Source of the DNA: a virus
Length of the DNA stretch: 38,542 nucleotides
Direction: 5' to 3' (one strand)
IMG/VR virus record: IMGVR_UViG_3300045256_000082
Coordinates: 1-38,542 of that record
Shown: in pieces, positions 5,064 to 16,285 of the stretch
How the letters are laid out: each line of letters opens with the position of its first letter
How positions within the stretch are numbered: position 1 is the first letter of the stretch
Notes under the pieces: model-generated
Told to the model about the DNA's origin: nothing
The model's database searches: none
The model's input: only the letters and a program-made list of their open reading frames with translations
Translations under genes and position numbers: made by a program

Positions 5064-5071
5064 TTCCTACA
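5064..5071 (-). promoter_or_regulatory. TGTAGGAA element overlapping the polymerase start
   Basis: On the minus strand TGTAGGAA is directly followed by the polymerase ATG. It contains the TAG stop of the upstream gene, and its AGGA can serve as ribosome site. A protein bound here, on DNA or mRNA, could control polymerase synthesis; that part is inference. Confidence 0.45.
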
Positions 5072-5450
5072 CAGCGGTCAAAATAAAAGACAAAGCCGCG
5101 TCGAAAGAGTCGAGAACAGCATGGCTGTGATACCTCAACCATGGGCTGACGGAAGCCCCTTTCTTCGCCACCACGACAACCAACTTTCCAGCGTTGAAAG
5201 CGAGAAGCACTTCCATACTGGTGCCAACGCTTGGCTTGTCATAATTGACGAGAATCACGTCACTGTTCGCGATATCAATTTTGTCGAATTCAACAATCTC
5301 ATCCACGCACTGATCCTCGCGCCCGCGATAATCGCGCCGCATCGGGTCCAGTGTTTTCCCTGACCACTTCGCCTTTACTAGCTCGCGCCAATCTTTGCAC
5401 TCGTCATCAGTGCACCCATTGATTGGCCCGCAAAGGTAGATGGTTTTCAT
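5067..5450 (-). CDS. Nucleoside 2-deoxyribosyltransferase-like protein
   Basis: A 127-residue protein. The N-terminal IYLCGPI, the DIANSDVILVNYDKPS stretch and GTSME, where Glu80 would be the catalytic nucleophile, match the nucleoside 2-deoxyribosyltransferase superfamily. These enzymes swap or remove the base of deoxynucleosides. The start at 5450 has a good AGGAGA ribosome site. It lies between the DpdA-like gene and the polymerase, and a second member of the same fold is at 6950-7321. The substrate is unknown; base exchange, nucleoside hydrolysis or salvage are possible. Confidence 0.8.
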   Translation of the reverse strand: MKTIYLCGPINGCTDDECKDWRELVKAKWSGKTLDPMRRDYRGREDQCVDEIVEFDKIDIANSDVILVNYDKPSVGTSMEVLLAFNAGKLVVVVAKKGASVSPWLRYHSHAVLDSFDAALSFILTAV

Positions 5451-5464
5451 CTTTCTCTCCTGTT

Positions 5465-6181
5465 TTAGGCAAGCATGCACATCATCGTGATGCGCGCTGT
5501 CCACTCCGCAGCTTCGCGCCAATCATTCTGGTTTCGACCGTTTCGCCGGGCGGCGAAGGACCAAGCCATGCTGTCGGCGCTATGAAGAAGATTGATTACG
5601 GTGGCGCTGGTTAGGGCTGTTATCTTGACGCCAAACCCATGCAGCAACAGGTCTGGCCGTTTGCTCTTGATCGCAACCAGAATGCTTTCGATAGTCCCTA
5701 CGTTCGCGTTCCGCTTACAAACAGAACCGACACCCACATACATCCCAGGCTTAAGCCGATCCTCGTATTGATCGATATGATCGAGATAGTCGACCACCTC
5801 GTAGCCCTGCAGAACCAGCATGATGTAGGTGCGCGGCACGAGCGGCAGCAAGGCGTCATACCGCTCGATCGTTCGGCGCTGATGTTCTCGAACGGACAAA
5901 CCCGTCTTCGCTACGATCCACGGCTCGCACATCCAATCCTGTGAAACAGCCGCGACTAAACCGGAGCCCGGGTATGACCACCGATTGATCTCAGCCGCGT
6001 ACTCACCCACGCCATGGCGATACTTCCCGTGCGTGGCGATTTCCGTGAACGCGCCAGAGTCCATGATCCATTCGCGTGCTTGGATGGGCTTCTTTCGGTC
6101 CCGCAGCCGGTTTACCGATATGAAAGCTCTGTCAAAGTGCCCTGCATCGGATGGCTGATGCAGCCCGGTGTAGAACAGCAT
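5465..6181 (-). CDS. dpdA: DpdA-like DNA-guanine transglycosylase (7-deazaguanine DNA modification)
   Basis: A 238-residue protein resembling phage DpdA, a relative of tRNA-guanine transglycosylase that replaces guanine in DNA with a 7-deazaguanine base. Features seen: MDSGAF at 40-45, QDW at 81-83, QGYEVVDYL at 125-133, VGVGSVCKR at 149-157, HGFGVK at 181-186 and SADSMAW at 201-207. In DpdA phages this modification blocks host restriction enzymes. No preQ0-synthesis genes (FolE, QueD, QueE, QueC) are in the window, so the precursor would come from the host or from genes outside. It follows the diphosphohydrolase gene by 8 bases. The ribosome site is weak. Confidence 0.85.
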   Translation of the reverse strand: MLFYTGLHQPSDAGHFDRAFISVNRLRDRKKPIQAREWIMDSGAFTEIATHGKYRHGVGEYAAEINRWSYPGSGLVAAVSQDWMCEPWIVAKTGLSVREHQRRTIERYDALLPLVPRTYIMLVLQGYEVVDYLDHIDQYEDRLKPGMYVGVGSVCKRNANVGTIESILVAIKSKRPDLLLHGFGVKITALTSATVINLLHSADSMAWSFAARRNGRNQNDWREAAEWTARITMMCMLA

Positions 6182-6189
6182 GCGGCCGA

Positions 6190-6780
6190 CTATCTGGCCC
6201 CTCGCGGCTTCGACAAGCTCAGATCGCGTTCAAGTTCTTCCTGCAGCAGCGCGAGCGCGCGCCATGCGAGCTGCGCCGAATGCCGGTTGCCGTCCTGGTC
6301 GAAGCCGCCGCGTTCGGTCAGGTGACGCGCGATGCAGTCGGCGTGATCCATCGACTTGCCGCGCGCCCAATGCAGCGGTTGGCCGGGGTTGTGCTTCTCA
6401 TTCCCGCGATGGCTGATGTTGGAAACTGAAGCGAGCGCGTCGGGGAAATAGTCAAGCAGGCCGGAACACATCGGCATGAGCTTGCGCAAGTCGCTGTCGG
6501 TGTCGAGCAAACGCTTTGGCGGGACTTCTTCGCCGCCGTAGCTATGCGCCAACTCGGGCGCCTTCCCGGCTTGGCGTTCGGCTTCGCGTTGCTCATCAAA
6601 ACGGTCGATTGTCTTCTGTGAAGGCATGTGATTGGTCCACCAAGTGAGTTCGGAGCGGTCGATTTCGACCAGCGTTCCGGGCGGCATGATCGAGCCGTCC
6701 GGGTACATTCCGGCCATCGCGCAGATCAGTTCGTATTGGCGTTCGCGGGTCACGCGGTGTTGCCCTTGTTGTGGTTCCAT
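6190..6780 (-). CDS. dATP/dGTP diphosphohydrolase-like protein (DUF5664 type)
   Basis: About 196 residues. The C-terminal half (KHNPGQPLHWARGKSMDHAD, then RHLTERGGFDQDGNRHSAQ and AWRALALLQEELE) is the helical, His/Asp/Glu-rich domain annotated as dATP/dGTP diphosphohydrolase N-terminal domain in phages. It would alter the purine dNTP pool during replication. The ATG at 6780 has GAGGA upstream; a GTG at 6753, overlapping the previous stop as GTGA, is an equally possible start. It lies directly before the DpdA-like gene, consistent with a nucleotide and DNA-modification cluster. The exact nucleotide handled cannot be told from sequence. Confidence 0.8.
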   Translation of the reverse strand: MEPQQGQHRVTRERQYELICAMAGMYPDGSIMPPGTLVEIDRSELTWWTNHMPSQKTIDRFDEQREAERQAGKAPELAHSYGGEEVPPKRLLDTDSDLRKLMPMCSGLLDYFPDALASVSNISHRGNEKHNPGQPLHWARGKSMDHADCIARHLTERGGFDQDGNRHSAQLAWRALALLQEELERDLSLSKPRGAR

Positions 6781-6947
6781 CGCAGCGCTTCCTCTGCAGC
6801 TCGCCGCAAGTCCGCCATGCGCCCGCGCAGCGCTTTCCGTTGGCGCCACCCTTCGAGCGTCGAGAGATCACACGCGGCGATCTGCGCGTGCGTATCGATG
6901 ATCTCTTTGAACAGCGGCGGGATACGCTGCGGGGCGTTGGTGAACAT
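6750..6947 (-). CDS. Small helical hypothetical protein
   Basis: A 65-residue protein, mostly helical and charged (WRQRKALRGRMADLRRAAEEAL), with no recognised family. Its ATG lies two bases after the stop of the deoxyribosyltransferase-fold gene, and its end overlaps the start of the diphosphohydrolase-like gene, so it sits in one tightly packed operon. A helper or oligomerisation role is possible but nothing in the sequence shows it. Confidence 0.6.
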   Translation of the reverse strand: MFTNAPQRIPPLFKEIIDTHAQIAACDLSTLEGWRQRKALRGRMADLRRAAEEALRWNHNKGNTA

Positions 6948-6949
6948 GA

Positions 6950-7321
6950 TCAGCCCGGATAATCGAGGCCGCGGATCGGGACGACAGTCAGGCACAGCGC
7001 GTCAGCGGTGGCCTTCTCGGCGATTGCGCCTTTGCTGTTCTCCCAACCGGGCAGCAGCGCGATCCCTTCGGCTTCCGCACAAATCCACGCCAAGTCCATG
7101 CCAAGCGCTTCGCGCAGACTGAACCCGTAATTGGAGGCGGCGACACTCTCGTCACCGGTCGGGTTGTTCTTCGAGATGTCGGTGCCGTGTCGCTCGTTGT
7201 CCTTCTCGGCGGGGTTGAACACCACGTGTCCATCTTCGCGCAGTATCTTCGCGGCGGCGTGGAACGCCGGGAAGTTGAACTCAGGAATCCCCCTCATGGG
7301 GCCGGCAAGGTAGACCTTCAT
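6950..7321 (-). CDS. DUF4406-type deoxyribosyltransferase-fold protein
   Basis: A 123-residue protein with the typical start MKVYLAGPMRG, then FNFPAFHAAA, GHVVFNPAEKD and, near the C-terminus, GAIAEKATA, where Glu102 is in the position of the deoxyribosyltransferase nucleophile. DUF4406 proteins are common in phages and have no settled function. It is a distant relative of the 5067-5450 protein; the pair flank the diphosphohydrolase and DpdA-like genes. The start ATG lies just after the stop of the GcrA-like gene, with GGAGA upstream. Confidence 0.85.
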   Translation of the reverse strand: MKVYLAGPMRGIPEFNFPAFHAAAKILREDGHVVFNPAEKDNERHGTDISKNNPTGDESVAASNYGFSLREALGMDLAWICAEAEGIALLPGWENSKGAIAEKATADALCLTVVPIRGLDYPG

Positions 7322-7322
7322 G

Positions 7323-7664
7323 TCATTCTCCGTTCTGGTCGAGTTCGCCGACCAATCTGATAAGGTGTTCGGTTGGCTCGCGGCGTGCCATCGACTCGAT
7401 GGAAAAGCGCACGTTGCTACGCACGTAGCCGCGTCCATCGGTGTGGCGTGCCCTGCCTATGAGGGTGATGCTGCGGTCGGTGCCGTAGATCATCGCCTCA
7501 AGAGCCCGTAGGCTCTTGCTGCTCTTGCCGCGGTGGTAGCGGGCTTTGCACTCAGGGCAGTACGGTTCGCCCTGTGCAGCCGGCGCGCCGCAGAAGAAGT
7601 GCGGCGGCCCCGCGGTCAGCGGGCCGCGGCACTCGCGCGGCCCCAACTCCAAGATTGTGAACAT
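7323..7664 (-). CDS. GcrA-like sigma-interacting domain protein lacking the DNA-binding half
   Basis: A 113-residue protein. Residues 10-45 (RECRG, HFFCGAP, GEPYCPECKARY; Cys12, 25, 36, 39) match the C-terminal domain of alphaproteobacterial GcrA, usually CRWPIGDP-FCG-PYC-AY. In GcrA this domain contacts domain 2 of sigma70. The N-terminal helix-turn-helix of cellular GcrA is missing; a different basic domain follows instead. It may therefore bind host RNA polymerase without GcrA's own DNA sites; this role is inference. The ATG overlaps the previous stop as TGATG. The four Cys might also form a plain zinc site. It is the best marker of host class here. Confidence 0.75.
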   Translation of the reverse strand: MFTILELGPRECRGPLTAGPPHFFCGAPAAQGEPYCPECKARYHRGKSSKSLRALEAMIYGTDRSITLIGRARHTDGRGYVRSNVRFSIESMARREPTEHLIRLVGELDQNGE

Positions 7665-8254: not shown

Positions 8255-8875
8255 TTACTTCCACATGTCATCGGCTGAGATCGGCGCGCCGCCGCCGGAC
8301 GCAGGTGCGCCGACGTCGACAGCGTCAAAGCCGCTGTTGGTTTCCATGCGACCGCCGACGATCACTTCGTCGTGGTCGAGCAGCTGCACGCGCTGCAGTC
8401 CGAGGGAAATCCCTCGACCTTCGTTGTCGAAAGCGTACGGGCGCACGGTCACCACAGCCCATCGACCCGAATAGATGTCGGATGGATCACCGGTGAAGCG
8501 CTGCGCGTCCGGGCCAAAGATGAAGGGCGGATAATCGGCGCCGGTGCTGGTGCGCGCGAACCACGGGAACGCTTCGGCGTACTCCGTGAGCTTGGCGTCG
8601 TCGACGCTCTTGATCAGCGGATTGCGAAGGTTCTTCTTCTGCCAATCCTGCCCGAACCGGGCGACCGCGACGTCCACCATCATCTTCTTGAGCACGTCGA
8701 GATTCGCGGCGGCCGGGATCAGGACCGTCGTGCTGTGCTTCTTCGGCGCGTCGGGGCTGCGGTTCTTCTTGAACGCTTTCGCCGTCAGCAGCGAGTCCGG
8801 CCATACGAGTCGGCCCTTCGGCAGATGAATCTCGTCGGTCTTCTCGTTGTACCAAGCGGTCAACAGTTTGCTCAT
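8255..8875 (-). CDS. Enc34/DUF2815-type single-stranded DNA-binding protein
   Basis: A 206-residue protein matching the DUF2815 (Enc34) ssDNA-binding family: the N-terminal VWPDSLLTAKAF, the DNPLIKSVDD-type centre and the DIYSGRWAVVTVRPYAFDN strand region are typical. It should coat single strands during replication and recombination. The C-terminus is flexible and Gly/Ala-rich and ends with acidic and aromatic residues (DDMWK), like other SSB tails. Residues 182-188 (GFDAVDV) match a peptide also present in the Cas4-like nuclease and the primase-helicase. The start ATG follows a TAGGAAATAGAGGAT element. Confidence 0.88.
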   Translation of the reverse strand: MSKLLTAWYNEKTDEIHLPKGRLVWPDSLLTAKAFKKNRSPDAPKKHSTTVLIPAAANLDVLKKMMVDVAVARFGQDWQKKNLRNPLIKSVDDAKLTEYAEAFPWFARTSTGADYPPFIFGPDAQRFTGDPSDIYSGRWAVVTVRPYAFDNEGRGISLGLQRVQLLDHDEVIVGGRMETNSGFDAVDVGAPASGGGAPISADDMWK

Positions 8876-8876
8876 A

Positions 8877-8891
8877 TCCTCTATTTCCTAC
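8877..8891 (-). promoter_or_regulatory. TGTAGG-type element at the ssDNA-binding protein start
   Basis: On the minus strand GTAGGAAATAGAGGA ends two bases before the ATG. The same string, with the leading T, lies in the scaffold and small-array control regions. GAGGA works as ribosome site, so element and start site coincide. No -35 box is at the distance seen at the promoter copies. Confidence 0.45.
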
Positions 8892-8952
8892 TTTCTAGAC
8901 GTGCTTGATCCCAGCGAAGCACAACGCCGTCGTCCCCTTCGTGTTTTTGTTA

Positions 8953-9024
8953 GACCGGGGGCGGGGTTCGAACCCGCACATGCGCCTTATCACTGCGCTG
9001 CTCTACCTGTTGAGCTACCCCGGT
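8953..9024 (-). tRNA. tRNA-Ile (anticodon GAT)
   Basis: A full cloverleaf on the minus strand: acceptor stem ACCGGGG/CCCCGGT (7 bp), D stem GCTC/GAGC with a GG-containing loop, anticodon loop GTGATAA with GAT at 34-36, and T arm GCGGG-TTCGAAC-CCCGC. The anticodon stem has four pairs and an A-G mismatch next to the loop, and position 32 is G. CCA is not encoded. It reads ATC codons, which are frequent in these genes, so a supply role is unlikely to be the only reason; resistance to host anticodon cleavage is another possibility. Confidence 0.85.
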
Positions 9025-9052
9025 TGTTAGCGCGCGTTGGCCACGCCGCGCG

Positions 9053-9289
9053 CTAGCTGACGATCGTCTTCAGCTTGTCGACGACTTCGCCGGCCCTGAT
9101 CGCTTCGGCCTTCGCGATCTCGGCGTCGGTCTTCAGCTGTGCGGCTGCCACGAGCTTCGCTTCAGCAGCGTCAAGCTTGCTCTCGATCAGCGCCTCAAGC
9201 TTGCCGATCATCCAATGGAAGTCGGCGACAATTTCCTCGACGCTGTTGTGTCGCTTGAAGAACGCAACAGCACGCGACAGCATACTCAT
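9053..9289 (-). CDS. Small coiled-coil protein
   Basis: A 78-residue protein whose C-terminal two thirds (from KLEALIESKLDAAEAKL on) is a charged Ala-rich helix, very likely a coiled coil. The family is unknown. The start has AGGAAG and is preceded by a TGTAGGAAAAAGAGG element. It lies between the tRNA and a 146-residue gene of unknown function. Confidence 0.65.
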   Translation of the reverse strand: MSMLSRAVAFFKRHNSVEEIVADFHWMIGKLEALIESKLDAAEAKLVAAAQLKTDAEIAKAEAIRAGEVVDKLKTIVS

Positions 9290-9296
9290 GTCATCT

Positions 9297-9312
9297 TCCT
9301 CTTTTTCCTACA
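9297..9312 (-). promoter_or_regulatory. TGTAGG-type element at the coiled-coil gene start
   Basis: On the minus strand TGTAGGAAAAAGAGGA lies eight bases before the ATG of the 78-residue gene. GAGGA provides the ribosome site. It is the third case where this element and a start site coincide. No convincing -35 box is present. Confidence 0.4.
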
Positions 9313-9335
9313 CTGCAGGCGTGCGAAGGCCGGGC

Positions 9336-9776
9336 TTAGGCGCGCAACGCCTTCAGCACCGCGTCGCGCTCGGCTTGGCTGGTGTTGGACGCCAACGTGG
9401 CAATCGTGTCCTTCTTGACTTCGAACTTCGTCTCGGTGCGGACGACGTCGTAGTAGTTGCCGTAGCCGGCCTGAATGTCGAACTTCTTGCTGCCGTACGG
9501 GAACCTGCGGTTCAGCGCGTCGCGCAGCGCGATCATGTCGTCGGTCTTGATGTTCACGCTGACCGCAGACGACCCGTTGTAGAGATGAAAGCTCGTGTTG
9601 TCCGAACCGGCGGACAGCTCGATATAACCGCCCTTGTTGCTGTTGACGGGCGCCGGGCTGATCGCAACGCTCTCATATCCGGTAGACACTTTCGGGGTAC
9701 ACATCGTCTTCGCTCCGTGTTGTGCCGCAACCTTCATGCTGCGGCGGTTGTAGAACGCGTTAAGCGTGGTGATCAC
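9336..9776 (-). CDS. Hypothetical protein, 146 residues
   Basis: A protein of unknown family with a beta-rich middle (GGYIELSAGSD, SFHLYNGSSAVSVNIK) and a helical C-terminus (SQAERDAVLKALRA). The start is uncertain. GTG at 9776 overlaps a TGA as GTGA and keeps coding-like codons, while ATG at 9704 has a better ribosome site (GGAG, eight bases away) and would give 122 residues. It lies in the leftward replication block. Confidence 0.6.
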   Translation of the reverse strand: MITTLNAFYNRRSMKVAAQHGAKTMCTPKVSTGYESVAISPAPVNSNKGGYIELSAGSDNTSFHLYNGSSAVSVNIKTDDMIALRDALNRRFPYGSKKFDIQAGYGNYYDVVRTETKFEVKKDTIATLASNTSQAERDAVLKALRA

Positions 9777-9791
9777 CAGCTCGTCATGGAC

Positions 9792-9848
9792 TCACATCCA
9801 ATCGACTGGGATCGCGTACACGTCTTGATTAAGAACGTGCGTTGTCAT
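9792..9848 (-). CDS. Possible 18-residue peptide
   Basis: The frame MTTHVLNQDVYAIPVDWM begins with an ATGA overlap on the stop of the upstream membrane-protein gene, the same arrangement used by most real gene pairs here. It fills the otherwise empty gap before the 146-residue gene. There is no ribosome site of its own, so it would depend on coupling. It could be chance. Confidence 0.3.
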   Translation of the reverse strand: MTTHVLNQDVYAIPVDWM

Positions 9849-10027
9849 CGGCGCCACGCCTTACCCGCTACGGCGAACACGCCGAAGATGACCAGGATCA
9901 ACCAGATGACTAAGGCGATCCCGCCCATGATCATCGGCAGGAACACAAGCCATGCCGGCAGCGCGGGCAAGACCGTGTACCATGCAACAAGTAGGGCGAT
10001 CTGCGTGACGAAGGGGATGAACTGCAT
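9845..10027 (-). CDS. Small integral membrane protein
   Basis: A 60-residue protein with two hydrophobic segments (about 4-30 and 33-55) separated by a short polar turn, and a basic C-terminal end (GKAWRR). The start overlaps the stop of the Cas4-like nuclease as TAATG. Small two-helix proteins can be holins, but this one is embedded in the replication operon with no endolysin beside it, so I leave the role open. Confidence 0.65.
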   Translation of the reverse strand: MQFIPFVTQIALLVAWYTVLPALPAWLVFLPMIMGGIALVIWLILVIFGVFAVAGKAWRR

Positions 10028-11259
10028 TAGCGTTCCTCTATCTCAACGGCCTCGAAGCCGCTCGCTTGGTTGACGTCAGCCGCCGGCCGCTTGTCGTCGA
10101 TCGGCGCCAGCACCACGCCGCCCATCGGCTTGACCGCAAGCTCATCCATCGCGGCCTTGCGCTCTTTGGGCGGGATCATCTTTTCGATCTTCGCCGGCGA
10201 CAGCAGCTCCGGCTCAGTGAATATCTCTTTGGGGTCGAGCCCGTGTTCCATCGTCAGGACGCCGGCGGCTTCCTTGGCGTTTCGCCAGCGGCGATGTGCT
10301 TTCTTCTCGACGAGCTTGAAGCCGGGCGGCACACGGCCGCGCAGCGCTTCAGCATGCGCGAAGGCTTCCACCGCCTTAACCCACGTCGCGATGAGCGGGG
10401 CAGCCTTCAGCTTGGCCGCGAGTTCTTCGGGGCTGTACTTCGCGGGATCGGCCATGCTGAATATCTCACTATCCTGCCAGGAGGCGCCGACGAGCTGGTA
10501 CACAGTGTCGGCCAAGGCTTTGCACGCCGGCGCGCGCCGGCAGAACTTGCACCACGAACCCGGGTTGAGCGTCGTATCGCCATCCGCGATCCGGTTGGCC
10601 GCGGCGCGCAGCGCCATCGCGTGCGCGAGCAGATCGTCGGACTCGAGCGTCCACCGTGAGGGACGGCTGCTCACGCGCGGCTGCACGACGATGACTTCAA
10701 TTTCGTCGACGCCGCGGTTGTGGTAGCGCGACGCGATGGCGAGCGCGTACGTCAACAGCTGCTCGTTCTCGGCGGCGTCGACCGTGATGCCGCGGCCATA
10801 TTTGAAGTCGATGACGACAACCTTCCGCGGAGCCGGGATGTAGGCAACGAAGTCGCCAAGGCCGCTCGTCACGCTGTCCGCGAATTCGGCGACGCTCAAG
10901 CGTTCCTCAACTTCGTACTCACACCCCGGCTCGGCGGCAATCCGGGCAACCTCGTCGAGATAGATTTGCACGCCGTCAATCATCTCTGCGTCGACGGCGA
11001 AATAGCGCATGCCGTCCGGCTCCGGCCCCATGGCGTAGATCGAGCGGAGCTTCACGTCGATGATGAAATGCTTGTAGACCTTCGGGTCGCGGTGCGGCCC
11101 GGTCAGGCAGTGTTCAGCAAAGAGATGCGCGGCGGTGCCTTCGTTGGCGAACGACGTCTCTTCACGCGGCAGACCTTCGTCCAGCGTGATCGAGCCGGGG
11201 CACTTCATCCATCGGTGTGCGTCCGATGGCTTGAGCCGCGCTTTTTTGACTTCGGTCAC
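10027..11259 (-). CDS. DUF2800 Cas4/AddB-like PD-(D/E)XK nuclease with Fe-S signature
   Basis: A 410-residue protein with a RecB-type nuclease core: E40-GTAAH45, GLGDF with Asp136, VVVIDFKYG with Asp151/Lys153, and Q167-xxx-Y171. Cys20, 237, 240 and 246 reproduce the one-plus-three Cys pattern of the 4Fe-4S nuclease domain in AddB and Cas4. Such enzymes trim DNA ends, probably in phage recombination. The start is GTG, overlapping the previous stop as GTGA. The last residues contain GFEAVEI (401-407), a peptide shared with the ssDNA-binding protein and the primase-helicase. Confidence 0.88.
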   Translation of the reverse strand: MTEVKKARLKPSDAHRWMKCPGSITLDEGLPREETSFANEGTAAHLFAEHCLTGPHRDPKVYKHFIIDVKLRSIYAMGPEPDGMRYFAVDAEMIDGVQIYLDEVARIAAEPGCEYEVEERLSVAEFADSVTSGLGDFVAYIPAPRKVVVIDFKYGRGITVDAAENEQLLTYALAIASRYHNRGVDEIEVIVVQPRVSSRPSRWTLESDDLLAHAMALRAAANRIADGDTTLNPGSWCKFCRRAPACKALADTVYQLVGASWQDSEIFSMADPAKYSPEELAAKLKAAPLIATWVKAVEAFAHAEALRGRVPPGFKLVEKKAHRRWRNAKEAAGVLTMEHGLDPKEIFTEPELLSPAKIEKMIPPKERKAAMDELAVKPMGGVVLAPIDDKRPAADVNQASGFEAVEIEER

Positions 11260-11441
11260 GACTTAGCCTCGTCCGGTTTCCGTTCCGTCACGCTGACGTC
11301 GAATTGGTTGAGGCCGCGGTTGACCATGGCGACGTGCGTCACTTTCGGCGACTTCCCCGGTGCGAATTGCGCGTCCAACCAGAATTGCAGCGCCTCAACC
11401 ATTGTCGCAGTATTCAGCTCCAGCTTGTTGCTACCGCGCAT
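11256..11441 (-). CDS. Hypothetical protein, 61 residues
   Basis: A small protein of unknown family that starts inside the end of the zinc-finger-like gene (11-base overlap) and ends in a GTGA overlap with the Cas4-like nuclease. The C-terminal half (VTHVAMVNRGLNQFDVSVTE) looks like two beta strands. Its tight coupling suggests that it is made together with the nuclease. Confidence 0.6.
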   Translation of the reverse strand: MRGSNKLELNTATMVEALQFWLDAQFAPGKSPKVTHVAMVNRGLNQFDVSVTERKPDEAKS

Positions 11442-11619
11442 CATCGTCCTCGTCCTGGTCGGCGCACACGCGCTCGACGCAATGGCAGTGCACGAGGTAC
11501 ATGCGCCCATGGGCTTCCGCCGTCTCGACTTTATCGTGCGACAAGATCACTTCGTCGCAGATCGGGCACTCGGCGTATTGATGTGGCTCGATATGCTGGT
11601 CGAGACTGACGTCGGCCAT
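11431..11619 (-). CDS. Small zinc-finger-like protein
   Basis: A 62-residue acidic protein with CPIC, then a His-rich middle and HCHC, a probable zinc site (Cys18, Cys21, then His/Cys about 25 residues on). The C-terminus is strongly acidic (ADQDEDDDAR). The family is not known to me. It lies in a run of short overlapping genes upstream of the nuclease. Confidence 0.6.
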   Translation of the reverse strand: MADVSLDQHIEPHQYAECPICDEVILSHDKVETAEAHGRMYLVHCHCVERVCADQDEDDDAR

Positions 11620-11625
11620 GTGGCG

Positions 11626-11877
11626 TTACTCCGAAGCGCTGCGACCTTCGACGGTCACGCACTCCGTCTCGATTGCGAATTGCTTGCCGGCCAGCTGGGC
11701 GCTCAGATATTCAGCAAGCTTCGCAAGCTCGTCCTGCAGCTCCGGCGACTTACGGAACGCCTCGCACGCGCGCGCTGTTGGGAACGTGTCCTTATACTGG
11801 AACGTCTCCACCGGATCGTCGTTCTGCACGCCGTTGCTGAACAGATAGAGCAACGCGACTAGAATTGTGAACTTCAC
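11626..11877 (-). CDS. Small protein with N-terminal signal or membrane segment
   Basis: An 83-residue protein starting at GTG behind GGAGG. The first 15 residues (MKFTILVALLYLFSN) are hydrophobic and look like a signal peptide or anchor. The rest is polar with two Cys (ACEAF and TECVTV) that could form a disulfide outside the cytoplasm. An exported role, such as superinfection exclusion, would fit but is only a guess. Its start lies inside a candidate overlapping frame (11792-12007). Confidence 0.6.
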   Translation of the reverse strand: MKFTILVALLYLFSNGVQNDDPVETFQYKDTFPTARACEAFRKSPELQDELAKLAEYLSAQLAGKQFAIETECVTVEGRSASE

Positions 11878-12007
11878 TGAACGCCTCCATTCTTGTCCAT
11901 CCGCGCCACGCGCGGCAGGACGTTGGGAATTCTCCGTTATGCTTCCAGGGGAAGCCGCCGGCGCAGCAGCCGCAGCATGCGGCGCCGGACCACGGGCAAA
12001 GCGTCAC
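11792..12007 (-). CDS. Candidate Cys-rich protein overlapping the signal-peptide gene
   Basis: This 71-residue frame starts at a GTG that overlaps the previous stop as GTGA, the usual junction here. It fills 126 bases that would otherwise be empty. It is Cys- and Trp-rich (CPWSGAACCGCCAGGFPW). Its last 86 bases overlap the 11626-11877 gene in another frame, which is unusual for this genome. It could be real, or GC-rich chance. Confidence 0.35.
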   Translation of the reverse strand: MTLCPWSGAACCGCCAGGFPWKHNGEFPTSCRAWRGWTRMEAFSEVHNSSRVALSVQQRRAERRSGGDVPV

Positions 12008-12276
12008 GGCAACAGCGCGAGCGCACCACCGTATGTCCCGCCGTTCAGCGCGGCGTTTTCGAGAGGGCGCGGAATGTCGAAGTAGACCAACACGCCATCG
12101 GCGCGCACGCCCTTTCCTTCCCAAGGGCCGCCATCCACGTGCGTGAACCCGTGCGCTTTCATGTAGCGTGCCACGAGGCAGTCTGACGCAGCGGTGTATT
12201 GGTAGAACGTTTCCGGGTCCTGCTGCCGCAGCCAATGCTTGAAATGCGGAATGTCGATCCTGTTTCTGTCGCTCAC
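12004..12276 (-). CDS. Hypothetical protein, 90 residues
   Basis: A protein of unknown family with many aromatic and His residues (PHFKHWLRQQDPETFYQYTA, AHGFTHVDGGPWEGKG). The start is GTG in a GTGA overlap with the preceding gene and the stop is in a GTGA overlap with the next frame. It belongs to the run of short genes read from the 13.2-kb promoter. Confidence 0.6.
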   Translation of the reverse strand: MSDRNRIDIPHFKHWLRQQDPETFYQYTAASDCLVARYMKAHGFTHVDGGPWEGKGVRADGVLVYFDIPRPLENAALNGGTYGGALALLP

Positions 12277-12491
12277 TGCACAACTCCTATATGCTCACCG
12301 ACATGTTCGTGCTCTTTCCGCCACGTCAACGCGTGCACGATGGCGTTGACACTTTCTCGATCTGAGCGGGCGCGAACCGCGGCGCTCGCGATCTCGTGGA
12401 CATCGATTGCATCTAAGGTCAGCCCGGGATGTCGGGCCGCCTGCATGATCGCGTCCGCCCAGAAGACGAATGATTTGTTACGCCGTGCCAT
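12273..12491 (-). CDS. Hypothetical protein, 72 residues
   Basis: A small helical protein (VFWADAIMQAARHPGLTLDA, then IASAAVRARSDRESVNAIVHAL) with several His near the C-terminus. No family is recognised. Its ATG lies 14 bases inside the end of the 182-residue gene, so translation is coupled. Confidence 0.6.
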   Translation of the reverse strand: MARRNKSFVFWADAIMQAARHPGLTLDAIDVHEIASAAVRARSDRESVNAIVHALTWRKEHEHVGEHIGVVQ

Positions 12492-13026
12492 CGATGTACG
12501 GCTGCAGCTCAGCCTTGAAGGCTGCGTATTGTGTTTCCTTCAGATCGGAGACCTTCGTGACGTTCCATTTCTGGAATAGTGGCGTGACCTTCGCGACACC
12601 CTGCTCAAGCGTCTGACCGCGCTTGGCGACAGCGGCGTTGTACGCGCGCACTGCAGCGCGCACGTCTTCGAGCGTGACAGGTGCTTCGGCTTTCGGAGGC
12701 TCGTCGCCGAGATCGGCGAGGAAATCGACAGAGCTGTCAAGCGTGCCGTCGACCGGCGCGTCTGCCTCCGGCACCGGATCGGTGGCCGCGACCTTGTTGG
12801 CCTTCGGCTTGGTCGTGCGTGTCTTGCGGACATCCTTCGTGGGCTCGCCGGTCAGCGGGCTTGTCTGCGCGTCGAGCTGCGGCGCCGTCGCCGGGGCGGG
12901 CGTCACAACCGGAGCGCTCTGCGGCGCCTGCCGCGGCTGCACTGCGCGGGCAATCAGCCCAAGCGCATTGAAGGCTTCCTCAACGAACCGCTGCGGAGTG
13001 TCGCCGCTGACTTCAAGCTTGATCAT
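12478..13026 (-). CDS. Hypothetical protein with Pro/Ala linker, 182 residues
   Basis: The first 30 residues form a short folded part (IKLEVSGDTPQRFVEEAFNA). A low-complexity Pro/Ala/Thr/Lys linker follows (about 30-110), then a helical C-terminal domain (LEDVRAAVRAYNAAVAKRG, VTPLFQKWNVTKVSDLKETQ). C-terminal domains of this shape occur at the end of various phage recombination and replication proteins, but I cannot name the family. It is the second gene behind the promoter at 13.23-13.26 kb. Confidence 0.65.
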   Translation of the reverse strand: MIKLEVSGDTPQRFVEEAFNALGLIARAVQPRQAPQSAPVVTPAPATAPQLDAQTSPLTGEPTKDVRKTRTTKPKANKVAATDPVPEADAPVDGTLDSSVDFLADLGDEPPKAEAPVTLEDVRAAVRAYNAAVAKRGQTLEQGVAKVTPLFQKWNVTKVSDLKETQYAAFKAELQPYIDGTA

Positions 13027-13033
13027 TCGATCC

Positions 13034-13198
13034 TCACCGTTTGGTTGCCCAATAGAGGGCGTAGGCAAGCGCCGCGATGGCGCCGACATAGACGCAGACC
13101 ACGAGGAACCAAACGAGTGCGAGAAACAGCAGAGCAGCGACGAGCGCGGCGAGAACGAGTGCCACACCGGCGATGACACTGAGGATTGTTTCGAGCAC
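13034..13198 (-). CDS. Small membrane protein, 54 residues
   Basis: A frame starting at GTG with AAGGG nicely spaced upstream. Almost the whole protein is hydrophobic (ILSVIAGVALVLAALVAALL onward), enough for two membrane helices, and it ends with ATKR. It is the first gene after the leftward promoter at 13.23-13.26 kb and stops seven bases before the next start. The role is unknown; a holin-like or host-membrane function is possible. Confidence 0.65.
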   Translation of the reverse strand: MLETILSVIAGVALVLAALVAALLFLALVWFLVVCVYVGAIAALAYALYWATKR

Positions 13199-13218
13199 CT
13201 TGGTCCCTTCCGTCTTGT

Positions 13219-13258
13219 TGTAGGTCTAAGCGTCCTACAGAACCTACACGCTTGTCAA
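13219..13258 (-). promoter_or_regulatory. Leftward promoter with TGTAGG operator
   Basis: On the minus strand TTGACA (13253-13258), an 18-base spacer and GACGCT (13229-13234) followed by TAGAC match the promoter form seen at several rightward operons. The spacer holds the direct repeat TGTAGGTTCTGTAGGA (13233-13248) and CCTACA follows (13219-13224), making a dyad around the -10. It should drive the leftward replication operon. Confidence 0.7.
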
Positions 13259-13292
13259 ATTTTTTTTTAGTTCGCTCGCCCCGCATGCTTAA

Positions 13293-13409
13293 TCACTGAA
13301 GGCCGATCACTTGCGCCAACTTGGCGAAAGACAGGACAAATAGGGCGATCGGCAGCAGCAGACATACAACGCCACACCCAACGATCAGACCGGTTTTCAC
13401 AGTATCCAT
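13293..13409 (-). CDS. Small single-pass membrane protein, 38 residues
   Basis: A frame with a single membrane segment (LIVGCGVVCLLLPIALFVLS) between a short polar N-terminus and an amphipathic C-terminus. The ATG lies 13 bases inside the end of the 94-residue gene upstream, so it is likely co-translated. No family is recognised. Confidence 0.5.
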   Translation of the reverse strand: MDTVKTGLIVGCGVVCLLLPIALFVLSFAKLAQVIGLQ

Positions 13410-13681
13410 GCCAGCATGATCCCTTCGAGGGTGTCGGGCTCGTGCACGACCTTGTGCGCCGCCTCTTTGATGTACGTGCTCGTGGCCGCTTCGGCTAAGC
13501 ACTCCAACTCATGCTTAGTTAGCGAATTGATCGGGCGCTTCACGTTGGTGCCGTTGTCCTTCAGCCACTTCACCATGGCTTGCGCGCACTTGGTGCGAGT
13601 CTCATCGCACCACATGTCGTCGCGACTCCACGGGCGCGGCGGTAGCGCGTCGTTTCTTCGGCGGCTTCGCTTCTTGGGCAT
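13397..13681 (-). CDS. Hypothetical protein, 94 residues, start inside the resolvase gene
   Basis: A basic N-terminus (PKKRSRRRND) and a helical remainder with two Cys, family unknown. The ATG at 13681 has an exact GGAGG eight bases upstream but lies 80 bases inside the resolvase gene. An ATG at 13615 would reduce the overlap to 14 bases but has a poorer ribosome site. The stop overlaps the start of the 38-residue membrane protein. Confidence 0.6.
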   Translation of the reverse strand: MPKKRSRRRNDALPPRPWSRDDMWCDETRTKCAQAMVKWLKDNGTNVKRPINSLTKHELECLAEAATSTYIKEAAHKVVHEPDTLEGIMLAWIL

Positions 13682-14135
13682 GCTGCGCGCCTCCGGCCTC
13701 GATCGTGTAGTACAGCAGTGCGATAGCATCCGCTTCGTTGTCGTCGTGAACCTCGAAGCCCATCATCGCAGCGGTGCGGATCATCGCCTCTTTGTTGGCG
13801 TTGCCCTTGCCAGTCCAATACTTCTTGATGGTTTGCACTGGCACGCCGAAGTAGGGCACGCCGTTGGCTTCGCACCACGCTTCGAGGGTGCCCATCAGCC
13901 CGCCATAGATGTGCGCTGCATCGGTGCCAAGATGGCGCCGCACCGCCTCAAAAGTCACGAGCGTGATCGGATTGGACTTGTGAAACTCGTCGAGAGACTT
14001 GCGAAACTTCAGATAACGCACACCGGCGCCTTCGTACTTCTTCGGCCTCAAGTCCCACGTGCCAGAGGCGACGGCACCCTTGGTTCCCCACGCAAACCCC
14101 GTGGCTGTCCCAAGGTCGAGAGACAGCGTTGTCAT
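13602..14135 (-). CDS. RuvC-like Holliday junction resolvase
   Basis: A 177-residue RNase H-fold nuclease. The catalytic acids are visible: Asp7 (LSLDLGTATGFAW), Glu63 (VTFEAVRRH) and the DDNEADA cluster at 131-137. Enzymes of this type cut four-way junctions and branched DNA before packaging. The C-terminal 25 residues are basic and probably disordered. It is the first gene behind a leftward promoter at 14.20-14.23 kb. Confidence 0.88.
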   Translation of the reverse strand: MTTLSLDLGTATGFAWGTKGAVASGTWDLRPKKYEGAGVRYLKFRKSLDEFHKSNPITLVTFEAVRRHLGTDAAHIYGGLMGTLEAWCEANGVPYFGVPVQTIKKYWTGKGNANKEAMIRTAAMMGFEVHDDNEADAIALLYYTIEAGGAQHAQEAKPPKKRRATAAPVESRRHVVR

Positions 14136-14198
14136 TCGCCCACCGTGTTGTTGACGTTGCCGCGGCTCTTTACGCGCGGTCCCCTCTATGTCGATCTA

Positions 14199-14243
14199 AG
14201 CCTATGGTTCCATTACACCCAGTGTCAAGTAGGTTTTGTAGGA
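14199..14243 (-). promoter_or_regulatory. Leftward promoter for the resolvase, with upstream operator
   Basis: On the minus strand TTGACA (14223-14228), 18 bases and TAGGCT (14199-14204) followed by TAGAT. Here the TGTAGG pair (14229-14243) directly abuts the upstream side of the -35 instead of lying in the spacer. The rest of the 14136-14356 gap holds a divergent promoter candidate and no gene that I can support. Confidence 0.65.
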
Positions 14244-14298
14244 CGCGCCGTCCGCACTCTTAAAATACGGATAACGGCGAAGCGCAAAATGCGCTTAT

Positions 14299-14328
14299 TT
14301 GACAAGCTTCTAGTTAATGTCGGAAAAT
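14299..14328 (+). promoter_or_regulatory. Rightward promoter for the primase-helicase
   Basis: TTGACA (14299-14304), 18 bases and GAAAAT (14323-14328), followed by TAGGTC. It stands 28 bases before the primase-helicase ATG. No TGTAGG repeat lies in its spacer; the nearest copy is at 14229-14243. Confidence 0.6.
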
Positions 14329-14356
14329 TAGGTCAATCATCCTTTCGAGGCGTTTA

Positions 14357-16285
14357 ATGACATCCGACGTCCAAAACGCGCGGCTTGATGCGGCGCTCTC
14401 ACTTGCGCGTAACGGCTTCAAAATCTTTCCTATCGAACCCAACAGCAAGGTGCCGGCAATCAAGAACTGGCAGACATTGGCCAACGATAACCCGGACTTA
14501 ATTAGTAAATGGTGGGTTGACGAATTCCCCGGCGCCAACATCGGGATCAGCACCGAAGGCTTGTGCGTTATCGACGTCGACCCACGCAACGGGGGGCAAG
14601 GATCGTGGGACGCGATCATGCTGGCGGAAGACGCACCCGATACGGCGACGCAGCAAACGCAGAGCGGCGGCGTTCACCACATCTACAAGCTACCAGATGG
14701 ATTAACCGTTCCTAACAGTCGCTCGAAGCTTGGCCCGGGCATCGATATCAAATCGGCCGGCGGCTACATCGTGGCGCCCGGCAGCGAGATCGACGGGCGG
14801 CCTTATCGATGGTTCAAAGGCTTCGAGGGCGACAAGCTCGCCATGGCGCCACAATGGCTGCTCGATCAGGCGCGAGCCCCGCGGCAGCGCACGAGCGCGA
14901 GCGGGCAGCGCGTCGCGGATGAAAGCACCGAAGCTGTGGCCATGGCCACCGACTATCTATGGAATCGCGCACCGCGCGCCGAGCAGGGCAATCGCGACAA
15001 CACGGCATTCGCCGTTGCCGCAAAGCTGTTCGATTATGGATTATCTGAAACGAGCGCATGGCAAATGTTGTGCGCGTGGAACGACGCGCGATGCGAGCCA
15101 CCGCTTGAGGATCACGACGTCGATCGCATCATTGAGAGCGCGCAGAAGAACCGGACGCGTGCAATCGGGGCGGCAAGCCCCAACGCGCCGGGCTTCGAAG
15201 CGGTCGAGATCAGGCCGCGGTCTGAAGTCCAAAATGCAAAATCAGCCCACAGTGTGACAGTGTGGGAGCACGCGCTCGCTGCCGCCGACAAGGCAATCAC
15301 GCACGCGGGCGACCCGCTCATTACGGGTGTGCTCGACAGGGGCACAATGAGCGTGTTGTACGGGGAATCGGGATCGGGCAAGACCTTCGTGGCGCTCGAC
15401 ATGGCGGCGCACATCAGCGGCGGCCAAGAGTGGAACGGGCGCAAGGCGCGACAGGGCGCGGTGCTCTATGTGGCGGCCGAAGGCGGGCGGGCGATCTACA
15501 AGCGCTTTGCCGCGATCAAGAAGAAAACGCCGGAGCTGCTGCAGCGGCTCTATGTGGTGCGCCTTGATGTTGATCTCGTGCACGATCGCAAGCACGTCAA
15601 CCTTCTGGTCGACGCCGCAAAACAGGTTGCCGCGCACGCCAGAGCTCCAGTTGAGCTGGTCGTAATAGACACGCTGTCTAGGGCGCTCGCTGGCGGCGAC
15701 GAGAACAGCCCCGTCGACATGGGGCACTTGGTCAAGTCGCTTGATGCAATCCGCAGCGCGACCGGCTCGCATGTGATGGTGATCCACCACAGCGGCAAGA
15801 ATGCCGCCCGGGGCGCCCGTGGGCACAGCCTGTTGCGCGCAGCGACCGACACGGAGATCGAGGTTAAGAAGAAGGTCATGCGCGCCACCAAGCAGCGCGA
15901 CCTTGATACCGACTTCGAGATGGCGTTCAAGCTGATACCGCTGCAGATCGGCGAGCGCGACGGGGACCGTATCACGAGCTGCACCGTCGAATGGCGAACC
16001 GTGACGGAGGCGGACGACGACCCGGCGCCGCTCTCGCCCGAACTCGTGCGCCTCAAAGGCGCGATACTGGCGGCACTGCCGCCCGGCGTCATGGAGTTTA
16101 CTTGGGCCGATCTGGTTAATAAACTGCCTGCGGAGTTCGTAGGCATCGGAAAAGCATCGGAAGCGCAGCGGAAAGCGTTCAAGCCCTGGAGGGACAAGCT
16201 CGTTTCCGGTGGTCACCTATCGGAAATGCCCGGAAAACGCTGGCTTGTGATAGCATCGGCAGCATCGGAAGACGATGAAAACTAG
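14357..16285 (+). CDS. Bifunctional primase-polymerase / RepA-like helicase
   Basis: A 642-residue replication protein. Residues 11-170 are a prim-pol domain (acidic pair in CVIDVDPRNGG at 70-80, GGVHHIY at 104-110, GIDIKSAGGYIVAPGS at 128-143). Residues about 190-265 form a helical primase C-terminal region. Residues 300-520 are a RecA-type ATPase with Walker A GESGSGKT (336-343), Walker B LVVIDTL (434-440) and HHSGK (477-481). It should make primers and unwind DNA for the family A polymerase. The linker carries GFEAVEI (279-285), shared with the nuclease and the ssDNA-binding protein. A helical C-terminal domain of about 90 residues follows the ATPase. Confidence 0.92.
   Translation: MTSDVQNARLDAALSLARNGFKIFPIEPNSKVPAIKNWQTLANDNPDLISKWWVDEFPGANIGISTEGLCVIDVDPRNGGQGSWDAIMLAEDAPDTATQQTQSGGVHHIYKLPDGLTVPNSRSKLGPGIDIKSAGGYIVAPGSEIDGRPYRWFKGFEGDKLAMAPQWLLDQARAPRQRTSASGQRVADESTEAVAMATDYLWNRAPRAEQGNRDNTAFAVAAKLFDYGLSETSAWQMLCAWNDARCEPPLEDHDVDRIIESAQKNRTRAIGAASPNAPGFEAVEIRPRSEVQNAKSAHSVTVWEHALAAADKAITHAGDPLITGVLDRGTMSVLYGESGSGKTFVALDMAAHISGGQEWNGRKARQGAVLYVAAEGGRAIYKRFAAIKKKTPELLQRLYVVRLDVDLVHDRKHVNLLVDAAKQVAAHARAPVELVVIDTLSRALAGGDENSPVDMGHLVKSLDAIRSATGSHVMVIHHSGKNAARGARGHSLLRAATDTEIEVKKKVMRATKQRDLDTDFEMAFKLIPLQIGERDGDRITSCTVEWRTVTEADDDPAPLSPELVRLKGAILAALPPGVMEFTWADLVNKLPAEFVGIGKASEAQRKAFKPWRDKLVSGGHLSEMPGKRWLVIASAASEDDEN

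Follow-up and report, generated by a model that had tools for sequence, protein, structure and literature searches.

A short peptide shared by the DUF2800 nuclease, the gp2.5-type ssDNA-binding protein and the primase-helicase of a phage module: a probable docking motif

Introduction

Positions 1 to 38,542 of the virus record IMGVR_UViG_3300045256_000082 of IMG/VR (the window, i.e. the whole stretch of 38,542 nt that was analysed) encode a single-stranded DNA (ssDNA)-binding protein (SSB), a Cas4-like nuclease and a primase-helicase, each containing one copy of a seven-residue peptide, GF(E/D)AV(E/D)(I/V). Why do three unrelated replication proteins of one phage carry the same short peptide? 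The original prediction, made from the sequence, was that the peptide is a docking motif bringing the three proteins to one partner. The analysis reported here indicates that it is very probably a short linear docking motif common to the proteins of the DUF2800/gp2.5-SSB/primase replication-recombination module.

The locus contains the same genes in the same neighbourhood as the duf2800-gp2.5-polA module, described in the available passages of PMC8093625: an exonuclease, a gp2.5-type SSB/annealing protein and a family A DNA polymerase (PolA). These passages name the gene module and mention neither a shared peptide nor physical coupling of its products. The DUF2800-gp2.5 module is widespread, the DUF2800 nuclease alone matching 1,281 phage records, and how its proteins cooperate is not described in the literature that we found.

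Three copies of the peptide in the window

The translations of the three genes confirm the peptide at the predicted residues of the SSB, the nuclease and the primase-helicase. As had also been predicted, the codons of the SSB, nuclease and primase copies all differ (GGCTTTGACGCTGTCGACGTC, GGCTTCGAGGCCGTTGAGATA and GGCTTCGAAGCGGTCGAGATC, respectively). The three copies score 34-36 against each other, and the best other 7-mer in any open reading frame (ORF) of the window scores 23. When the 44 window proteins were composition-shuffled 400 times, three 7-mers matching one another with at least this score were found in 50 of the 400 trials (p ~0.12). Consequently, the triple of the window by itself is weak evidence, and it is the comparative data that lift the peptide far above chance.

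Conservation of the box in homologues

Searches of IMG/VR with the window's own nuclease and primase did not find close relatives. Mixed nuclease alignments used as queries yielded 225 loci, 209 of them with both a DUF2800 nuclease and a DUF2815/gp2.5-type SSB, and thinning at 60% nuclease identity left a non-redundant set of 74 genomes.

Phenylalanine is present within the last 26 residues of 73 of the 74 non-redundant nucleases, compared with 26 of 74 in an upstream control window of equal length. This residue is acidic-flanked in 60 of the 74 tails; shuffled tails gave 29 (maximum 40). In an alignment of seven diverse nucleases, Phe402 is the sole invariant residue past the SDxRPA region. 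The column of Phe183 of the SSB is occupied by Phe in 84 of 87 homologues and is one of six columns conserved above 90%, the tail being otherwise variable. As for the primase, Phe280 is the sole invariant column of the whole protein among 19 aligned sequences, the row of genome L049 being doubtful. Alignment programs may place F on F artificially where a linker is gappy, as in L049, and claims from the primase alignment are therefore not used alone; the scan of primases for the box of their own genome, described below, is independent of alignment. A clear copy of the box is found in about half of the sampled primases, mostly in the disordered linker.

Thus, at 19-44% identity, homologues have the peptide in the corresponding positions, and the surrounding residues of tail and linker are not conserved. 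The nearest relative with all three proteins, L013 (38-44% identity), has APGFEPVEI in the primase, NAGFDVADV in the SSB and ANGFEDQSV in the nuclease. The form GF(E/D)AV(E/D)(I/V) of the original prediction is present locally; more generally, the motif is an acidic-aromatic box, with GF(E/D)AV as one local dialect. At the core of this box is an aromatic position, mostly F but in fewer cases Y, W or L, set in an acidic, disordered stretch and as a rule followed by a hydrophobic residue at +3. The tails of most homologues are acidic with an aromatic residue, the box of the window (GFEAVEI) being less acidic.

Covariation of the box within genomes

The letters of the box change together in the proteins of one genome. 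Box similarity between the nuclease and the SSB of the same genome is 8.12 versus 3.77 in permuted pairs (z 7.9, n=73, p <= 2e-4), and z remains at 3.8 to 7.6 under within-clade permutation. Sites were chosen independently in each protein and Phe was left out of the score. The units were genomes thinned to under 50-70% nuclease identity and permuted within clades, with no full tree model. Automatic picking of motifs missed the nuclease copy of the window, and also the copies in some SSBs whose tails are long and proline-rich; mistakes of this kind reduce the covariation score. In the primase, the box of the own genome was recovered in preference to those of other genomes (z 6.1, n=53).

The same covariation test applied as a control to acidic-Phe sites in PolA and in the SNF2 helicase gave no signal (z -0.9 to 0.3). 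These two proteins were also considered as further carriers and were ruled out by the own-genome box scan (z -1.1 each). In the other ORFs of the sampled genomes the box is nearly absent, with two isolated matches in two genomes.

Individual genomes illustrate the agreement. Nuclease, SSB and primase carry NDFDDVS, DDFDNIS and DDFEDLT in L022, EDFDDVT, DDFDDVT and DDFDDVS in L031, and GDFDDLE, SDFDDID and SDFDDLE in L092. The core residue is Tyr in both the nuclease GAYDDEDEDDDEV and the SSB DAYDEDEDEWDEDEV of phage Enc34 and Trp in both the nuclease (GAWDDEDDDEV) and the SSB DAWDEDEDWEDEV of BPS4, the primase having DPFDDEDEV in each of the two. In hz69 it is Leu throughout: SEEDLE in the nuclease, STDDLEDD in the SSB, and SLDDLEDD in the linker plus TEEDLE at the C-terminus of the primase. 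Where the SSB has a proline/alanine-rich tail variant (Vibrio phages 1.271 and K458, Klebsiella phage MEW1), the nuclease tail is also without the acidic box. Thus, the peptide is kept at the same places in divergent homologues and its copies covary within genomes.

Two side observations concern these sequences. The variant SSB with a long proline/alanine-rich tail occurs in L004 and L234 (Vibrio phages), L236 (Klebsiella MEW1), L010, L154 and L203; the nucleases of L010 and L203 retain the acidic box despite this tail. ORF5 of Enc34 (L228, 4463-5776) is annotated as a hypothetical protein in JQ340774, yet it is a DUF2800-type exonuclease, and the RefSeq copy is annotated as an exonuclease.

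Covariation was also seen between the C-terminal tips of SSB and primase (z 4.2 across 49 genomes), as in the pairs DDDDF/VDDDF of L097 and VDPLA/FDPLA of L007. This agreement of the last three to five residues, seen for example also in L139, L140 and L034, may represent a second shared element. Covariation between the tips of nuclease and SSB is weak (z 1.6 to 2.6). All three proteins end in DEV in Enc34 and BPS4 and in DDL in SS2019XI. The tip of the window primase, SEDDEN, does not match that of the window SSB, ADDMWK.

Position outside the folded domains

In the AlphaFold2 (AF2) model of the window SSB, the tail (residues 171-200) is coil without secondary structure, with a predicted local distance difference test score (pLDDT) of 66-71, compared with 95-98 for most of the core. 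The primase copy is in a linker of low pLDDT, and the nuclease copy, placed from sequence, ends three residues short of the C-terminus. The models thus put the box outside the folded domains of SSB and primase, and the flexible location expected by the original prediction was borne out. Such a position is typical of short linear docking motifs. Both outcomes that would have spoken against the original prediction, loss of the peptide from otherwise conserved homologues and its burial in a folded core, were checked for, and the prediction passed both checks.

The common partner

Conservation, covariation and disorder support the shared motif; the single partner of the original prediction we can only infer. 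We predict that all copies bind one phage-encoded site, which differs between phages. The most likely candidate for this site on present evidence, followed by the polymerase, is the SSB's own basic, aromatic-lined ssDNA groove, a prediction to which we give about even confidence. Enc34 SSB, two further DUF2815 proteins and T7 gp2.5 all crystallise with their C-termini placed in the concave beta-sheet of an adjacent molecule (PMC5686142). The box aromatic of Enc34, Tyr187/188 in our own numbering from the sequence, coincides with the end of the tail as traced in the crystal. Furthermore, similarity of nuclease boxes between genomes tracks similarity of SSB cores (regression beta 0.22, p 0.002), and in the same regression it follows neither the nuclease core, nor PolA (beta -0.07), nor the primase. 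This result favours the groove and is suggestive only. A third line in favour of the groove is the retention of the box in phages in which no PolA is recognised, described below.

The following mechanism could be envisaged. In the absence of ssDNA, the tail of one SSB would occupy the groove of a neighbouring SSB. The nuclease tail and the primase linker would hold SSB near the ssDNA that they make or use, by means of the same DNA-like peptide. Emerging ssDNA would then displace the peptide, and SSB would be loaded.

Several points weigh against this interpretation. About half of the primases are without a clear copy of the box. The regression on SSB similarity shows a weak effect and concerns linked genes, and the tail-in-groove contacts of the crystals could be due to packing. 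A peptide seated in the groove could not bind an SSB that is already on DNA at that site. Finally, the genomes were picked for a DUF2800 nuclease and retained only if an SSB was found, so that the set is no independent measure of how universal the SSB is as a partner.

Alternatively, the same docking motif may have the phage DNA polymerase as its common partner, this being PolA or, in some marine phages, a weakly PolB-like protein; our analysis makes this a possible but rather unlikely solution. T7 offers the precedent, as the acidic C-terminal tails of gp4 bind two basic patches on gp5 (PMC12593628) and the tail of gp2.5 is implicated in contacts with the polymerase and the primase-helicase (PMC5686142). 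PolA, itself without the box, also belongs to the duf2800-gp2.5-polA module in the available passages of PMC8093625. However, the covarying box persists where a different kind of polymerase seems to have taken the place of PolA, or where the record lacks a PolA match: the first is the case in a marine clade whose gene at the polymerase position matches PolB-type families only weakly, the second in a record of 38.6 kb. In addition, the regression indicates that PolA similarity does not explain nuclease-box similarity.

In the marine clade, the loci at the PolA position with weak matches to PolB-type exonuclease/polymerase are L021 10627-12408, L141 12480-14339, L146 10329-12236 and L148 12247-14064; the nuclease, the SSB and the box are all retained in this clade.

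A different phage protein, or a factor of the host, is improbable as the partner. The module is often accompanied by an SNF2 helicase and a VRR-NUC protein, but the SNF2 helicase was not found in the window or in the flanking sequence retrieved around L011-L013, although the box is present there, and covariation in the genomes of phages with many different hosts speaks for a site encoded by the phage.

We consider it very improbable that there is no common pocket at all and that each protein uses its acidic aromatic tail in cis, as a generic DNA mimic or a charge brake. Removal of the Enc34 SSB tail does permit binding of double-stranded DNA, and phage SSBs bind non-cognate DNA less because of their acidic tails, which act in cis (PMC5686142). 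Brakes of this kind would nevertheless not need the same letters in one genome, so that the covariation of nuclease and SSB with its Y/Y, W/W and Leu swaps is unexpected, as is the retention of the GF form in all three proteins of L013. Chance likeness of seven-residue peptides, compatible with the equally good triples in about 12% of shuffled window proteomes, is practically negligible and is refuted by the conservation in 73/74 nuclease tails and 84/87 SSBs and by the covariation, for which z is 6 to 8 and the controls are null.

Features of the window

The coordinates of the proteins and elements discussed here are collected in Table 1. The match of the SSB to PF10991 passes the curated cut-off, and its AF2 model, of the gp2.5-type OB-fold, matches Enc34 SSB (5odl/5odj, E 2.6e-10), the DUF2815 structures 4klk and 4jg2, and T7 gp2.5 (1je5). 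The nuclease belongs to the DUF2800 Cas4-like family with a PD-(D/E)XK core and, judged from its sequence, is a predicted exonuclease. The family A polymerase of the window carries no copy of the box.

Table 1. Location of the replication genes, peptide copies and related elements in the window
Feature	Position	Strand	Details
ssDNA-binding protein, DUF2815 / T7 gp2.5 type, 206 aa	8255..8875	-	Pfam PF10991 (Enc34_ssDNA-bd) E 1.5e-13; PHROG 112
SSB docking-box copy GFDAVDV (putative)	8312..8332	-	residues 182-188 of 206 aa, C-terminal tail
SSB C-terminal tip ADDMWK, acidic and hydrophobic, possible second element	8258..8275	-	sequence
DUF2800 PD-(D/E)XK (Cas4-like) exonuclease (predicted), 410 aa	10027..11259	-	Pfam PF10926 E 1.9e-74; PDDEXK_1 E 2.3e-9; PHROG 69
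Nuclease docking-box copy GFEAVEI (putative)	10039..10059	-	residues 401-407 of 410
Prim-Pol / PriCT_1 / AAA_25 primase-helicase, 642 aa	14357..16285	+	Pfam PF09250, PF08708, PF13481
Primase-helicase docking-box copy GFEAVEI (putative)	15191..15211	+	residues 279-285 of 642 aa
Disordered primase linker holding the box, residues 267-304	15155..15268	+	AF2 pLDDT below 50; between PriCT helices and AAA domain
Family A DNA polymerase, 687 aa	3000..5063	-	Pfam PF00476 E 2.2e-15

Between the nuclease and SSB genes, a 146-aa ORF of no known family (9336-9776, minus strand) contains STGYESVAISPAP (GYESVAI), a weak possible fourth box. The window also carries a DpdA-like gene (Pfam PF23859, deazapurine-in-DNA) at 5465-6181 (minus strand). 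Its neighbours in the region 5067-7438 include nucleoside 2-deoxyribosyltransferase-like and dGTP-diphosphohydrolase-like genes, pointing to possible DNA base modification by this phage.

Relation to known systems

In bacteria, the C-terminal tip of SSB is a hub for many partners, a short acidic and hydrophobic peptide in a disordered tail. Many of the phage SSBs studied here likewise end in an acidic tip, with F, L, V or I as the last residue. The wiring differs, since in bacteria one protein carries the peptide and many carry the pocket, whereas here several proteins carry the peptide. Peptides that bind sliding clamps have a QxxLF-type consensus; the aligned box does not fit it, having neither a conserved Gln nor an L-F pair.

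The T7 replisome is similar in having an SSB of the same fold with a disordered acidic tail containing an aromatic residue, and in using acidic tails of the SSB and the primase-helicase for protein contacts (PMC12593628, PMC5686142). It also differs from the present module. Here a third, unrelated protein, the DUF2800 nuclease, carries the peptide; copies of the box are found inside a tail or within a linker and not only at the very C-terminus, the position of the C-terminal Phe of T7 being unused in the window; and the box covaries letter by letter, with a partner that may be the SSB itself. In phage lambda, the two-component recombinase (exonuclease-annealase) of Exo and Red beta is similar in that the 5'-3' exonuclease is in physical contact with the protein coating the ssDNA that it makes (PMC9512822). 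The contact proposed here would be a linear peptide of five to eight residues, also present in the SSB and the primase.

The gene module, the SSB fold and tail, and the acidic docking tails of T7 are thus already known. Our searches of the open-access literature did not turn up a description of a peptide that nuclease and primase have in common with the SSB, nor one of its covariation. As far as we could find, co-evolving acidic-aromatic docking peptides spread over three unrelated proteins are new.

Significance

We tentatively propose, with somewhat less than even confidence, that a peptide code wires these widespread phage modules: in each phage the exonuclease, the SSB and often the primase would carry matching, co-evolving peptides for a single common site, likely the DNA groove of the SSB, and ssDNA would switch the network by displacing the peptide. 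As a wiring rule, the shared peptide is cheap to test and predicts which proteins and which residues are in contact. It also provides a handle for picking matched exonuclease/annealing-protein pairs in recombineering. More generally, short motifs can be discovered through covariation between unrelated proteins of one phage. If the proposed code is true, its changes (F, Y, W or L at the core; G, D or a hydrophobic residue before it) could prevent cross-wiring in mixed infections and in recombinant modules.

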